The position numbers were made by a program, and so were the translations under genes. The notes under the pieces were generated by a model that ran no database searches, was not told where the DNA came from, and worked only from the letters and a program-made list of their open reading frames with translations. A stretch of DNA of 45,155 nucleotides from Candidatus Peregrinibacteria bacterium (GTDB lineage: Bacteria; Patescibacteriota; Gracilibacteria; UBA1369; LOWO2-01-FULL-3). The first letter of the stretch is position 1. Each line of letters opens with the position of its first letter. The DNA lies in the NCBI GenBank assembly GCA_016206505.1, contig JACQRJ010000001.1, positions 1-45,155 on the forward strand. The letters are read 5' to 3'. This document shows, piece by piece, positions 11,732 to 44,541 of the stretch.

Positions 11732-13042
11732 ATGTTTGATATTCATTTGCATCAGAGGCAGCGTCATATTTTGCACATTGATGCGGATGCGTTTTTTGCA
11801 TCGGTGGAGCAGATTTTGAATCCGGCGCTTCGGGGCAAGGCGGTTTTGGTTGGCGGGCCGACAGATACCAACGGCATAGTATCGGCGGCAAGCTATGAAG
11901 CCCGAAAATTCGGCATAAAATCAGGAATGGCGATGTATCTGGCTAAGCGAAAATGTCCTGGCGCGATTGTTGTACATGGGAATTTTGATGCTTATCGCAA
12001 TTTTTCACGGAGGATGTATAAAATCTTTTGTGAATTTACGCCGGATGTGGAAATGGCGTCGATTGATGAGGCATATTTGGATATTACGGGATGCTGCAGA
12101 GGAGAAGGCTGGGCAATGGAAACCGTGCAAAGCACGGTTTCTGGCCGAATTTCTGTCACCGGTGATACTTTTTGCGATCATGACAATCACGAGGCGGAAA
12201 CTTTGGCACGCAGAATTTTGATGGAGATTTACAAGAAGCTGGGACTATCTGTTTCCTGTGGCATGGCCAGCAGTAAAATGGTGGCAAAAGTTGCATCCAG
12301 TACATATAAACCTCACAAATTGAGCATTGTCCCCTATGGAAAGGAGCGAGATTTTTTGGCTCCGCTACAACTTCGAGCGATGCCTGGAATCGGACCGAAG
12401 ACTTTTGAAGTTTTGTCGAGAGTGGGACTTACGACTTTGGGGAATTTGAGCAGTATGAAGATGACAGAGGTGATTGATAAATTGGGCGTAGGCGCCGTGG
12501 GCCTTTGGAAAAGAGCTTGCGGTGTTGATAACAGCGAGGTGATTTCGACTCAGGCTTTGCCAAAATCAATTTCCAAAGAACATACTTTTTATCAGCGGGA
12601 AACGAGTAAGAAGAATTTACTAAGGGAATTAAAAAATCTTTCGGTGATGGTTTTTGAAAAACTGAGGAAATACAGGATGAAAGCTTCGACTATTTGTATA
12701 AAAATACGATATTTCAGAGAAGGGGCGAGTAGCCAATGGCATCGTGATAATGCGCAAATTGAGAATTTAAAGCCTAACATATTCCAGGATTTTTCTTTCC
12801 AAAAGCATCTGGATTTTCCGACGTGCAGCGATAAGAAACTTTTCATGTTTGCCAAAAATTTATTTTTGGAAAATCTCGCGGATGAGCCGGTGCGCTTGAT
12901 AGGCATTGGAGTAAGCGGCCTTAAGCAAAATTACAATCTAACGATTTTTGAGCGCGATGAGGAGGAAGAAGGGCTTTTTTATTCGATTGATAAAATCCGC
13001 CAGGCGTATGGTGAGGATGCTTTGAAATATGGCGTGGATTAG
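11732..13042 (+). CDS. dinB: DNA polymerase IV (Y-family)
   Basis: HIDADAFFASVEQ, SYEARKFGIKSGM, SIDEAYLDITG, MPGIGPKTFEVL; starts directly at the toxin stop codon. Confidence 0.93.
   Translation: MFDIHLHQRQRHILHIDADAFFASVEQILNPALRGKAVLVGGPTDTNGIVSAASYEARKFGIKSGMAMYLAKRKCPGAIVVHGNFDAYRNFSRRMYKIFCEFTPDVEMASIDEAYLDITGCCRGEGWAMETVQSTVSGRISVTGDTFCDHDNHEAETLARRILMEIYKKLGLSVSCGMASSKMVAKVASSTYKPHKLSIVPYGKERDFLAPLQLRAMPGIGPKTFEVLSRVGLTTLGNLSSMKMTEVIDKLGVGAVGLWKRACGVDNSEVISTQALPKSISKEHTFYQRETSKKNLLRELKNLSVMVFEKLRKYRMKASTICIKIRYFREGASSQWHRDNAQIENLKPNIFQDFSFQKHLDFPTCSDKKLFMFAKNLFLENLADEPVRLIGIGVSGLKQNYNLTIFERDEEEEGLFYSIDKIRQAYGEDALKYGVD
12119..12141. repeat. Perfect hairpin GAAACCGTGC-AAA-GCACGGTTTC (dispersed hairpin family, copy 2)
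   Basis: 10-bp perfect inverted repeat inside dinB, in an apparent extra loop. Confidence 0.85.
12156..12165. repeat. TCACCGGTGA palindromic element in dinB (encodes SVTGDTF)
   Basis: GTCACCGGTGATACTTTTTGC; same core as 42791, 43488 and 44502. Confidence 0.8.
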
Positions 13043-25845: not shown

Positions 25846-27264
25846 TAATTAATCTCTTTGAGATAACAATTTTCGCAATATATTTTCTCGGGGCGACTTT
25901 GTGAGTATGTCGTCAATATCTCGGCTTTACACTGGGAACATTCCCGAGGATAAAGACGCCTTGGGTTTCTCAATTTCTTACGATCGCTGTGGCGACAGTT
26001 GAAGCATTTGCGTGGGATGGCAATGCTTTTTTGCCGATAGAAGCGCAGTTCCTTCTCACCAATCTTGTAATTTTTGGCACAATCACTGCAGGCAAGCAGC
26101 TCATTGATTATCGTGTCCGGGACGTCATCAAGATTATCAGGAATTGCATATTGACTGGGCTTAAATTCGCGCAGATCTTTTGATTTCCATTTATAACCTT
26201 TCGCCTTGGCTTCTTCCTCTGTAAGCGGAAAATAATCCTGAGCCACAGTCTCGTTGTAGCCGAATTGTGACATTTGAATCGGAAAAAATTCTCCCCATTC
26301 ACCCGTTTTTTTCAGATGCTCAATTATTTTTGGCAATAAAGCTTCGTATTCTTCTTTGGCGTACTGCTTGTTTAAAATACAATATTGCTTTTGTATAAGC
26401 CCGGTTGAGCCAAAAATATTGTGACAATTTTTGTAACAATAGGCGCTATGAAAAACATTGGACACGCCGAGAACGGCATAGAAACTGCCAATTACATTTT
26501 CGGAGCCGGCACCGCAGCAAGCAGAGTCATAGCAACGTTGCATATTGTCACCCCAAATATCGATATCGTAACAGTCGCTGGCGTCCATCATCGTATTGGT
26601 GCAAAATTTGCAGTCACGAAGATTTCTACAGTCGAAGCAAAAAAAAGAATCTTTGGAATTATCAATATTGTCACCGGTGACGTTTTCATTTTGCACAATT
26701 CACACATTCATAACAAAACTCGGATTCTGTGAGATAGAAAAAATCAATACAGCTCTTGATAATGGCAAAAGTTTCTCCATAAAGACAGTCCAGACCCTGC
26801 TCTCCGTCAAATACCAGATAGCAGTTTTTTAGTTTGTAATTGTCATTGGTGTATTCGCTGTTGTCGTTGTCGCCCAGAACTATCAGGCCTATTTTTGGAA
26901 CTTCCAAAAAAAGATCCCCGAATTGGTCAAAAAAAGTACGATTAAAATCGAATTGGCGGCCATAGCTTAGCGCGTCCCATTTATCGCCATACCACTGCAT
27001 GTGGCCGAAAACTTTGTAAGGCTTGCCAGGTGAATAAATGGAAATAATTTCTTTCCCCGTCAGGTCGCATTTACGCTTGTAAAGGTTGATTTCATTGCGC
27101 CAGGAAAGCCGACGGCGCTGCCTCTCATCGGGGCAAAGAGTGGGCGGATTTACTCCCATCTTTTCATAGAAAGAAAAATCCTCCTGAGAAATTGCAAAGT
27201 TTTCTCCGCTGACGGCACAATTTTTTCCGCTAGTCCTCAATGAGGGCGGTAAAATATCGATCAT
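25845..27264 (-). pseudogene. Cys-rich family paralog 4 split into two frames (25845..26696 and 26686..27264), internal deletion plus frameshift
   Basis: Upstream ORF stops at CYECVNCAK*, downstream frame resumes at NENVTGDNIDNSKD; about 90 aa present between these motifs in paralog 2 is missing. Confidence 0.7.
26671..26680. repeat. TCACCGGTGA palindrome at the Cys-rich pseudogene junction
   Basis: GAAAACGTCACCGGTGA shared exactly with the HNH gene copy at 43488. Confidence 0.6.
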
Positions 27265-34809: not shown

Positions 34810-37800
34810 ATGGGTGCAGAAAAAGGGCCGGAAAAATTGAGCGTACCGTACGGGCAAAAGGAGCAAGCTGTCCAGAAGTTCAAGGAAGCTGAAAATGAAA
34901 AAGCAAAAGCCGAAGGAAAGGAGCAAGTTCATGCGAATCCGAAAGCTGATTTTCTGAATGAGCAGGCACTTGATACTGAAACCGACAAAATTACTACACA
35001 AATAGAAGCAGCTGGTAATGCATTAGCGCCTAAATATGCGAACAAATTGACTGCGAAATTGAAGGGAGTAATTGATGGTGAAAAGACGAAGCTTAATTCG
35101 CAACTTGCAAAAATAAATAAGGATTCCGAGGGGAAACTTGTCAGTCTGGCAGCGGATTCGATGACAAAACTGGGGGCTTTTAATGAAATTCCCGATGTAA
35201 AATTGATCTACGAACTCGTGGCAGCCAAAGACGCAATAGCCGGTATTTCAGAAATGCAAATAACTTCTTATGCCAAAAACAGCGGTTACTATAAAGTCAT
35301 AAATCCAAAGTTTGAAACAGCCGTTGGTGCCGGAAAAATACAGGCTGTGCAAAAATTATTGGGTGTTACTGCTGACGGGAAGGTAGGGCCGGAAACTATG
35401 AAGGCTCTTTCCGCGATGCTTGGGCTGGGATTAAAAGTTGAATTTGGGGGGAAAACAATTTTGGCCGATGGAAAAACCGAAGTTGATGCGGATGGGAATG
35501 TAGTGGAGCCGCCAAAAGCCGAGGAGCCTGTGCCAGCCGAGCCCGGGAAGCCGGCCGAGCCTGCACCTGCGGCACCAGCTGAACCTCAGCCTACCGAGCC
35601 GCCGAAAGCGGGGGAGTCTGCGCCTACGGAACCAGCTGCGCCTACTGAGCCCGATGCGCCCGGGCCCGAGGAGCCTAAGGAAACCCCTGAGCAAATTTCA
35701 ACCGCGGTTTTTGATCAAGTACAGAGTTATATAGCGCAACTTGAGGGTAATAAACTGTATGAGCTTTGCGAATTTGAGACAGTTAAAAACGGCAATGCAA
35801 TCAAAATAACGATTGGCAAAAATGCTGGAGCGCACACCGTATGTGAAATAAAAGTTGATGAAAATGGGGCAATTAAATTTGCAGGTAACAATGCCGATAT
35901 TGCACGCGAGGGCATAGATGCTGCAGTGAAAGGCAAAATTGATGCATATGTACTTGACCGAAACTTTTTTGACGAAAATGAAACCGGCGATGGCTATCTT
36001 ATAAAATTTGCCGGCGAAATGCAGTTAAAGGAGTATAAAATCGAAGCCAGAGGCCAAGGCGTCAAGCTTACACATTCGGCAAACCCTAAAGGAAATGGTG
36101 TGTTGGAAATAATTATTCACAAGGATGGAGGTGGACTGATCGGTACAGCTACAATTACAAAAGACGGAATAAAGGTAGCGGTTGATGCCGAATCGCCTTT
36201 TCCTATGGGCGTTGAAGGTAGTAATGTTGTTATCAAAGCTGCACCGGTTTTTGACGTTAATTCTGAAAATGGGGCAGCAGATAAAATAACTGTATGGCGT
36301 TCCGAAGATGGAAATGGAGCAAAGACAGAATTCAGTTTTGCAGGCAGAGAGCCTCAAAGCGGCGATTACAAGAAAATGCATGATGCTACAGATAAAGAAA
36401 CATATGATCTGTATAAATTTCAGGAAGGAAAATGGTGGCTCGTGGCTACGGTTCACACGCCTGTCATGGAAGATCATGTGCCTGTGCCTGCGCCTGCAGA
36501 GCCGCCAGAAAAGTCAGCGCCTCCAGTACCAGATGCACCTACGCAACCAGCGGAGGAGCCAAAGCCGGCTGAGCCAACGCAACCAGTTGAGCCGCCGAAA
36601 GCGGAGGAGCCAAAGCCGGCTGAGCCAACGCCCGAAGCAAGCGATACAGCACCTGAAATGCAGGCTGTGAAAGCCAGGATTGGAGTTTTGCGCGGTGATT
36701 TGGAGGCGCAAAAAGTCGAATTTACCGGTGAAAAGCTGAAAGCAAAGGTAATTGATAAACTGACAACAAAAGATACTCCGCAGGCAATCAAAGATGCATT
36801 AAGTACAAAAATCAATGGTTCGGGCTTTGATACTGCGATGGCGGCGATGGTCGCGAATCTGGAGCGAGATTTAAGCAATGCTGATGATGCTGCAGATCCG
36901 GCTCTAGCTGAACAAATGTTGGTCGATGCCGAAGGTGCCTTGCAAGGCCTGAATGTGGATCATTATGTGGAAAGTCGCGAAGTAAGCGTGTTTGTAGAGA
37001 GGCTAGCGGGACCGATAAAGGCTGCGGATGAATTGATGGCAAAGATCGATACGCAAGTTGATGAATATGATGAAACCACAGGGAATTCTGTGCCAAAGGC
37101 ATTAGTAAAATCATTGGGGGCAAAAAATGCTTTGATAGCGGCAATGGTAAATTTTATCACCGGTGATGAAGCACAGTTTGATCTGGCTTTTCATGAGGCT
37201 GCGATCATTAAGGCAAAAGAAGAGGATATGAATTTGACGGAAGATGCTGCTGCTGATTTGGAAAAGGCCTCGAGAGTGGAAAAATGGCATGAAAAAAGCA
37301 ATAAAATTGACGGGGCAGTTCTATACAGCAGGAAAGGATCGAATTATAAGGCCGGCGATTATAAACTTGTGCCAGATAACATGAGTGGCACCGGTGATAG
37401 ATATGGTCTTTGGAAATATGATGATGGAGCCCGCGAGGAAGATGGAGTGGTGTTGCGTTATGAACAGCCTGGCTGGAAATTTGTTGCTCATTGTTCGAAA
37501 ATGGTGCTTGATGATAAGGCAGCCAAAAACGAGCAATTGGAGAAAACTCATGAAGATGTCAATGGAGCAGTTTCGAGTGCTTATGAAAATTTGAAGAAAA
37601 CAAGCAATGTATATGGAGATTTTAAAGTTACAAATCAGGGTTTAGATGGGGGTGTTGACTTTACGCATGAACATCCTGTGGAGCATGCAAGCACTGCCGT
37701 ATGTCATTTTCAGGTTGATGAAGAGACAGGGAAGATTTTTTATACCCCTTTGAAGGGAAAAAAGCAGGAAATATCATTAGCCGCTATTCCAGCAAAAATG

Positions 37801-38276: not shown

Positions 38277-38300
38277 GAAATTTTGCTGGTGCAAAATTTC
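38277..38300. repeat. Perfect hairpin GAAATTTTGC-TGGT-GCAAAATTTC (dispersed hairpin family, copy 3)
   Basis: 10-bp stem, 4-nt loop, GGGAAA...TTTCTTC flanks like copies at 1476 and 12119. Confidence 0.75.
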
Positions 38301-42762: not shown

Positions 42763-43014
42763 TTATTTGGCAATGGATTTTTCAAGAGTATCACCGGTGA
42801 TACTTTTTTGTTCCTGTTTTTTCACTATTTCAATTAAGTTGCAAGTTATTCTCACAAAAAGCCGTATCCAGTAAATTATAAGCCACCAAAACAAAATTGC
42901 CAGTAATGTATTGCCTGCAATATCATGCTCAAAGCCCAATTCAGTGAAAAACTGAACTGGAATTTCCAATAAAATCATTAACATCAACAAAATATATGCA
43001 TCTATGATATTCAT
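42763..43014 (-). CDS. Small membrane protein ending in KSITGDTLEKSIAK
   Basis: Two hydrophobic segments; C-terminal tail is the palindromic-repeat peptide. Confidence 0.55.
   Translation of the reverse strand: MNIIDAYILLMLMILLEIPVQFFTELGFEHDIAGNTLLAILFWWLIIYWIRLFVRITCNLIEIVKKQEQKSITGDTLEKSIAK
42791..42800. repeat. TCACCGGTGA palindromic element (AGTATCACCGGTGATACTTTTTT)
   Basis: 14+ bp palindrome followed by T-tract on + strand, downstream of pgeF. Confidence 0.85.
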
Positions 43015-43114
43015 AAACGACAGTTGAATTTTGAAAATATGGTTTTCATAGCAATTATCACAATATCAAAGCATTGGTCATTCCAACAAGAAAATATCGA
43101 ATGCGCAAAATTCT

Positions 43115-44110
43115 TCAGTGCTGCAGTGCCCTGCTTCTGCATTTGCGATACAGAAGATCAGCTTTTGCGAGGATGGGATTTATATTTCCATTTTTGCCGC
43201 TATTTGGCGAATCCAAAATTGTTCCGACATTCAGCCGCCACTTCTCCTGCGGCTCTTTTTCATTGGAGATCAGGCCATTGTGGGCAAATTCGTGATGAAT
43301 TTTGCAAAATGGGACGATAGAATCATGACTTTTGCTTTCGCTATAGCGGTCAATGTGATGGATCACCTGATACGGATTGTTGCAATTCGGATATGAACAT
43401 TTGCCGTTTGTTTCGGCTATGACCTGGCGTTTTCGTGCGACTTTTATATGGCGCGGCTCATTTGGCGGCGAATTATTTGCAAAAGTATCACCGGTGACGT
43501 TTTCTTGCATTTTCACAGGCACTTTTTTCTGCGCAAATTCCTTCTCCACCTTTTCTTTCAGCATCGCCTTCAAAAACTCCTTGTCGCTCATGTTTTTGCC
43601 CAATTTTTCCTTCAATTTCATGAACAGAAAAGTAGCTTCTTCATCGAGTTCGATTTTTGCCCTGCGGGCGACGGCTTTGCAAAACGGTTGCGCCGCCAAC
43701 TCCAACTGCTCACCGCTCAGCAAAACACCCATTTCCCCCGCCCTCACTTCCTTCGACAAAGTCTGCACCGCGCCCTTGCTCATATTTGAAATAGTATCGG
43801 CAAAAAACTGATCGGTTTCGGGAGTCACAACTTTCGCCAACATCGCGACCTTGTGCACGCCGATTTCCCGAATCGCCGCTTTCAAACAAGGCTTATCATG
43901 CAGATTTTCCTCCAGTCTCAGCCTTTTTATCACTGTTGTTTTGGCGATGTCACCGAATTTTCCCGCGTATTCCACAATCGAACCGGCATATTTTTGATAA
44001 ATTCCGCTGCGATATATTTCCGGCAAAATCAAAAGCATTTCATTTTTCAATTTATGACGATATGAACCCAGTCTGACAAATTCCCGATGCAATTTTTCCG
44101 CTTCAATCAT
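43115..44110 (-). CDS. HNH endonuclease-domain protein
   Basis: CSYPNCNNPYQVIHHIDRYSESKSHDSIVPFCKIHHEFAHNGLI. Confidence 0.85.
   Translation of the reverse strand: MIEAEKLHREFVRLGSYRHKLKNEMLLILPEIYRSGIYQKYAGSIVEYAGKFGDIAKTTVIKRLRLEENLHDKPCLKAAIREIGVHKVAMLAKVVTPETDQFFADTISNMSKGAVQTLSKEVRAGEMGVLLSGEQLELAAQPFCKAVARRAKIELDEEATFLFMKLKEKLGKNMSDKEFLKAMLKEKVEKEFAQKKVPVKMQENVTGDTFANNSPPNEPRHIKVARKRQVIAETNGKCSYPNCNNPYQVIHHIDRYSESKSHDSIVPFCKIHHEFAHNGLISNEKEPQEKWRLNVGTILDSPNSGKNGNINPILAKADLLYRKCRSRALQH
43488..43497. repeat. TCACCGGTGA palindromic element in the HNH gene linker (encodes QENVTGDTFANN)
   Basis: GAAAACGTCACCGGTGATACTTTTGC on minus strand. Confidence 0.85.
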
Positions 44111-44501
44111 GGCATGTTTTGTTAAGGGATTTTCCGTGTTTTTATTCTGACAAATCCACGCTCGAAAACAAGCAAAAAACGGCTCGCAAATGCTATTTCA
44201 ACACATTTTTATTTGAAAATTTAGTACGCCCAATGCAAGCCTTCAAAAAGCCGCAAAATCGAGTTCGCATTTCGTGCCAAAAACTCGTCAAGTCGAAGTT
44301 TCGGGGAAGGGGGATGATGTATGAGGCGGCGAAAATTGCTGTAAAAATAGTATTTCCGGAACAGATCTGAGGCGGGTTGGAAGGCGAATGATGGATGGTG
44401 TGGTAGGAAGTTTGGCTGCAAAAGTCCTAGAAATCCGCTGGAAGCTTGATAACATCTTGGTGTTTTTGTTCGGTACAAGTTTGGCACTCTTGTAAAAAGT
44501 T

Positions 44502-44511
44502 TCACCGGTGA
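44502..44511. repeat. TCACCGGTGA palindromic element 3' of a glycosyltransferase gene
   Basis: Minus strand AAAAGTGTCACCGGTGAAACTTTTTACAAGAGTGCCAAA; would encode KSVTGETFYKSAK. Confidence 0.85.
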
Positions 44512-44541
44512 CACTTTTGCGTTTAGGCAGCAGTTTGCGGC

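Follow-up and report, generated by a model that had tools for sequence, protein, structure and literature searches.

A short palindrome that flanks, lies within and co-varies with HNH-type nuclease genes in Peribacteria

A 22–26 bp palindrome dispersed in the genome of a groundwater bacterium of the Peregrinibacteria was found to represent one variant in a palindrome family that flanks, sits in and co-evolves with a multi-copy family of nuclease genes. The palindrome is probably the cognate site of this nuclease family (helical bundle, RHH-like segment and HNH domain), which would spread it in Peribacteria. The window, i.e., the whole stretch of DNA that was analyzed, is 45,155 nt long; its own genome, referred to here as G000, is tiny and 84% complete, and the relatives used for comparison are Candidatus Peregrinibacteria/Peribacteria. 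The genomes in this analysis are metagenome-assembled.

The core sequence TCACCGGTGA occurs six times in the window, where 0.03 copies were expected from shuffles (the maximum in a shuffle was 1), and 17 times genome-wide versus once for a reversed-pattern control. The six exact sites and their excess over expectation had been reported in the initial annotation of this DNA, and both were confirmed. According to the flank alignment, the full unit is a near-perfect palindrome of 22–26 bp, AAAGTNTC[A/C]CCGG[T/G]GANACTTT, of which TCACCGGTGA is the core and whose arms end in AAAA/TTTT. The unit is larger than proposed earlier, and it is a symmetric DNA palindrome and not a one-sided consensus. Among the six window copies, the full palindrome is present at 42791 (22-mer, 1 mismatch), 43488 (2 mismatches) and 44502. 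The palindromes of the window are as follows:

42785–42806, no strand assigned: palindrome copy AGAGTATCACCGGTGATACTTT in the downstream flank of the HNH cassette, encoding the KSITGDTL C-terminus of a small membrane ORF
43482–43503, no strand assigned: palindrome copy AAAGTATCACCGGTGACGTTTT in the HNH gene, encoding residues 203–210 (ENVTGDTF) of the linker that precedes the HNH domain
44496–44517, no strand assigned: palindrome copy AAAGTTTCACCGGTGACACTTT in the upstream flank of the HNH gene
12150–12171, no strand assigned: copy with a single arm in the DinB gene, encoding ISVTGDTF (residues 140–147)
26671–26680, no strand assigned: partial copy, consisting of the core and part of one arm
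37157–37166, no strand assigned: core alone, inside a large ORF, which may be due to chance
12119–12141, no strand assigned: palindrome GAAACCGTGCAAAGCACGGTTTC of a second family, in the same DinB insertion as the copy at 12150–12171

When up to 3 mismatches were allowed, the extended palindrome was found 21 times in G000 and not at all in the reversed control. A sister core, TCCCCGGGGA, does not occur in the window, yet it is equally common elsewhere in G000, and the pattern TCMCCGGKGA was counted 41 times in the whole genome versus once for the control. Twelve of 20 copies in G000 are intergenic, in a genome whose coding fraction is 0.89, and several lie just 3′ of genes. Among the relatives the distribution of the 22-mer is patchy: counts of 0, 1 and 24 were obtained within one genus, with 24 copies in G027 (99% complete) and none in G012. 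The second palindromic family, GAAAN4GC-NNN-GCN4TTTC, whose arms show compensatory changes, was observed at 1476–1498, 12119–12141 and 38277–38300 of the window and also at L095:12805–14792; GCTGCATG/GCTGCAGG often stands just before it, and several times it abuts the first palindrome directly.

The interval 42786–44530, to which the initial annotation had drawn attention, does contain a cluster of palindromes, but that these belong to the gene of a multi-copy nuclease, two flanking it and a third one inside, had been missed. The locus comprises the following features:

43115–44110, minus strand: nuclease gene of 331 aa, with a helical bundle (residues 1–131), an RHH-like segment (~149–192), a linker and a C-terminal HNH domain (224–300)
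44161–44303, minus strand: conserved leader, which blastn also found before other HNH genes; it has a hairpin of the GCAAGCC..GGCTTG type with T residues after it
42763–43014, minus strand: membrane ORF of 83 aa beside the cassette; by tblastn, two further palindrome sites, C6 and C68, have relatives of it

The HNH domain was recognized by PF01844, which scored above the cut-off in one member of the family, by PHROG HNH matches and by a match to the IscB HNH profile (1.6e-6). In the family alignment, C238 and C243 (CXXXXC) are invariant and the HH..H..C..HH pattern is near-invariant, so both the zinc cysteines and the catalytic histidines of an HNH domain are present in the sequence. The ribbon-helix-helix assignment is a putative one, based on the sequence pattern together with weak matches to antitoxin profiles (BrnA antitoxin, 0.007, in one member). 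An AlphaFold2 monomer model (pLDDT 88) contains two helices (157–170 and 176–191) but no strand in this segment; its sole segment with pLDDT below 50, residues 205–210, overlaps the palindrome-encoded residues 203–210. A Foldseek search with the whole model returned nothing significant, and no real Rfam match was found in the cassette, leader included. The family had 16 matches in the genome of the window and up to 41 in one relative, with no match in 14 of the 59 relatives searched. A leader of ~140–180 bp with a hairpin and T run was seen upstream of many HNH genes and is possibly a promoter plus attenuator. Relatives of the membrane ORF at 42763–43014 were located at L106:5815–5979 and L098:17–250.

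The palindromes are linked to the nuclease genes across Peribacteria. An internal loop-free palindrome was found in 43 of 96 nuclease ORFs (none was detectable in over half of them), whereas synonymous-codon shuffles gave 2.9 on average and never more than 6; since related ORFs are not independent, such ORF counts overstate the independent evidence. Thirty-five of 47 internal palindromes lie within two linkers around the RHH-like segment, which, generously bounded, make up 16% of the protein, and most of them cluster in two narrow zones, one on each side of that segment, at residues 129–141 and 189–212. Because at least 20 different cores are represented among them, the thing that recurs is palindromic symmetry at that place and not one sequence. 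The flanking palindromes are mostly situated ~150–500 bp upstream of the nuclease ORF. When flanking and internal palindromes were compared, the cores were the same in 7 of 8 independent loci, representing five distinct cores (permutation p = 5e-4), and the sole mismatch was a CG simple repeat; the L058 pair, an overlap artefact, was excluded from this comparison, and a duplicate in G025 entered it once. Moreover, on a nuclease tree from which the linker columns had been left out, the core required 28 changes versus at least 36 in 300 shuffles. The core thus co-varies with the nuclease lineage, an agreement that may owe something to gene and site being inherited together. Genes of the TCACCGGTGA clade come from G000, G027, G029 and G040, and related genes in genomes of different families share a core, while close paralogues in one genome may differ in theirs (e.g., GGGATATCCC versus GGACCGGTCC). 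By core, the nuclease types include TCACC in the window, TCCTCGAGGA in G025 and CTGCCCGGGCAG in G027.

The same association was observed at the genome scale, with composition statistics taken from sampled stretches and pattern counts from whole genomes. In the sampled DNA, the top over-represented 10-bp palindromes of G000 are the nuclease cores TCCCCGGGGA, TCACCGGTGA and TTCCCGGGAA, and those of G025 (TCCTCGAGGA) and G035 (TGCCCGGGCA) are their own nuclease cores, whereas two nuclease-free genomes showed no over-represented core palindromes; the stretches of G000, G027 and G035 had partly been chosen for holding sites, and those of G025 and the controls mostly had not. Over-representation of a given core was confined to genomes that have the matching nuclease. 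In whole-genome counts, TCCTCGAGGA occurs 14 times in G025, 10 times in G002 and not in G000, and the control gave 0 in both G025 and G002. According to the whole-genome lists, 11 of the 14 TCCTCGAGGA sites in G025 lie within 600 bp of a nuclease match (p = 3e-12), as do 10 of the 24 extended sites counted in G027 (p = 1e-8); most copies in G000 are solitary and far from nuclease genes. Palindrome counts, which range from 0 to 44 among relatives, were correlated with the number of nuclease matches (rho 0.40, p = 0.0015, kinship among genomes ignored), and the control was uncorrelated.

Traces of copying were also noted. Paralogues within one genome are alike over the leader and coding region only, which fits the copying of a gene-sized unit. 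A single case in G035 hints that nuclease activity and repair spread palindromes and sometimes parts of the gene: there, a segment from inside the gene is copied exactly over 67 bp, up to the palindrome core and no further. Short solitary fragments of HNH genes that carry a palindrome were seen in G035 at L211:6803–6869, near 7573 in L212 and near 3256 in L215, including the one that terminates exactly at the core.

The reading frames given in the initial annotation, namely SVTGDTF in DinB, NVTGDTF in the HNH linker and SITGDTL at the C-terminus of the membrane ORF, are right. The in-frame VTGDTF reading holds for several copies, but most of the 20 copies are intergenic, and the PheA copy is read in a different frame (EKYPRGHF). 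The commonest peptide encoded by the palindrome is K-S-x-T/P-G-x-T-F/L. VTGDTF was rejected as a functional peptide motif, because a large share of the copies is intergenic, the reading in PheA differs and the same linkers also hold cores that encode other peptides. As shown by comparison with solved homologues, the NadB, PheA and DinB copies fall in variable regions, linkers or insertions; the DinB copy lies in an insertion of ~30 residues relative to solved DinB proteins. In PurL and LysA, the palindrome was gained in frame at orthologous sites that are empty in relatives. The PurL loop contains the palindrome in G022, G027 and G029, and the same loop is empty in G012 and G000 (PurL of G000 has a degenerate copy elsewhere, at residues 48–55). 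LysA of G029 has ~99 extra bases containing the palindrome, an insert longer than the palindrome itself, and LysA of G012, G022 and G000 is without it. The reading frame is preserved by the inserts in both genes.

Of the ideas raised in the initial annotation, that of a protein-binding site agrees best with the data, but its probable partner, a cognate family of HNH nucleases with the site in their own genes, had been missed. In the mechanism we propose, a dimer of the nuclease would recognize its own palindrome via the RHH-like segment, the HNH domain would nick or cut at the palindrome, and repair or strand transfer would copy it, alone or with the gene. The outcome would be palindromes flanking the gene, in the interdomain linkers and scattered elsewhere, with the scattered copies surviving between genes or, in frame, within protein linkers. 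It is from the genomic pattern that we infer recognition and nuclease-driven spread, and binding and cutting likewise. It is paradoxical that the gene of a double-strand endonuclease should contain its own cut site in intact form; nicking instead of cutting, self-limitation, or domain exchange via the site are possibilities. A wider reading, which we put forward only tentatively, is that of a new minimal mobile system, in which the dimer of a protein-guided nuclease reads a lineage-specific palindrome kept between its own domains and spreads ~24-bp copies in frame, with a recognition specificity that changes quickly from one sister paralogue to the next.

In-frame insertion in unrelated proteins, insertion sites that are intergenic or in linkers, and the distance of most G000 copies from nuclease genes would also be given by a miniature element of the RPE or CGTC-REP kind moved in trans by another enzyme, with the nuclease linkers as a tolerant and frequent landing place. 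Mere landing sites, however, need not match the flanking core or follow the nuclease phylogeny, the palindromes found in excess in each genome correspond precisely to its nuclease cores, and a Y1 transposase was not found in G000, G027 and G029; we consider this explanation unlikely. Palindromic operators are commonly bound by RHH proteins, and the RHH-like protein might repress its own gene via the upstream palindrome and regulate others via the dispersed copies, the HNH domain being secondary. The location of the upstream palindromes ~150–500 bp before the ORF, near the conserved leader, would suit such an operator network, which is nevertheless slightly less likely still: copies are also found downstream of genes and within unrelated coding regions, and the presence or absence at orthologous sites, together with counts of 0 to 44 among relatives, resembles mobile DNA and not a regulon.

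That the palindromes are bidirectional intrinsic terminators sharing their sequence by chance appears very improbable. The intergenic copies (12 of 20), several of them just 3′ of genes, and the AAAA/TTTT ends of the arms would be expected of terminators, but these do not need loop-free DNA symmetry, a true terminator-like hairpin of this genome reaches −22.5 kcal/mol, compared with −8 to −10 kcal/mol for the weak RNA hairpin of the palindrome, copies lie inside genes and the core co-varies with the nuclease. A DNA-uptake signal, also raised in the initial annotation, would likewise be a short motif dispersed in coding and non-coding DNA; this idea has next to no probability, given that genomes hold tens, not hundreds, of copies, nearly always full palindromes, that single half-sites are not abundant in the window and that some relatives of the same genus lack the motif (0 copies in G012).

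Matches to the 22-mer were also found beyond Peribacteria, in Kineosporia, sphingomonads, Caulobacter, Parasutterella and phage contigs, and were rejected as the same element. Since the HNH family is absent from these hosts and several of the proteobacterial matches adjoin repABC-like ORFs, they probably represent convergent palindromes, for instance parS-like sites. The sequence GAAAGTTTCCCCGGGGAAACTTTC, often in two or more copies, was seen in sphingomonads, Haematobacter and Caulobacter (L036, L038, L040, L042 and L056); in L038 and L056 it adjoins ORFs resembling repABC partition genes and is likely a parS-like site. Kineosporia mesophila has intergenic palindromes of ~40 bp, TGATCATGCAAAGTNTCCCCGGGGANACTTTGCATGATCA (L035, L049, L050, L052, L057 and L059), and viral contigs L060–L064 have AAAGTTTCACCGGTGAAACTTT within a coding gene, adjoining a DNA methylase-like gene.

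To our knowledge, no enzyme is known for the movement of protein-coding palindromes such as RPEs and CGTC-REPs. Here, both statistics and phylogeny tie a specific nuclease family to its own palindromes, so that the enzyme–target hypothesis is directly testable. The naturally diverged protein–palindrome pairs, at least 20 in number, could reveal a specificity code; a gene with its recognition site built into an interdomain linker would be organized in a new way; and proteins of the reduced Patescibacteria genomes would be shown to be shaped by in-frame DNA insertion. In the literature searched, no paper was found that links Peregrinibacteria, palindromes and HNH genes or that discusses the palindrome sequence.

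Several known systems resemble parts of this arrangement. Like the present family, the REP13E12/DUF222-HNH genes of Mycobacterium are chromosomal and multi-copy and encode a helical domain at the N-terminus and an HNH domain at the C-terminus; the nuclease family differs in having no match to DUF222, and we know of no report of cognate palindromes for 13E12. REP13E12/HNH/DUF222 is among the listed repetitive elements (PMC10589994). TIGR-Tas (TasH) has a Nop domain, an N-terminal HNH domain and a tandem guide array beside the gene (PMC12045711); it was rejected on two features, as the HNH domain here is C-terminal and the window HNH locus has no tandem repeats. HNH homing endonucleases resemble the family in having HNH nuclease genes that seem site-specific and spread in multiple copies. 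Insertion of a homing gene normally destroys the target site, whereas here intact palindromes flank and lie within the nuclease genes; in addition, the sites are true palindromes, many of them in unrelated loci.

Rickettsia palindromic elements (RPEs), the precedent favored in the initial annotation, are ~150 bp long (PMC10969869) and CGTC-tagged (PMC3733652), and RPEs and CGTC-tagged REPs insert in frame into unrelated genes, with no classical transposase assigned (PMC10969869, PMC3733652). The likeness holds for in-frame palindromic insertion into protein genes (PurL, LysA, DinB, PheA and NadB) and for the empty orthologous sites of PurL and LysA, but the element here was not classed as an RPE because it is 22–26 bp long and has no CGTC tag; it also has an associated nuclease family. 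REPs with their RAYT genes are short dispersed palindromes with a flanked gene, lineage-specific cognate pairs, clusters and some copies in genes (PMC3733652), and the present palindromes resemble them in all of these respects. Identity with REP-RAYT was rejected because the Y1 transposase PF01797 is absent in G000 (84% complete), G027 (99% complete, 24 copies) and G029, where positive controls were detected; the aligned copies with their flanks also contain no GTAG tetranucleotide. The partner here is an HNH-family nuclease, the site is also found inside the partner gene, and the palindrome is loop-free. Taken together, the ties between palindromes and nuclease genes suggest an undescribed nuclease-and-target-site mobile system, with a REP/RAYT-like logic and a Rickettsia-like in-frame insertion.
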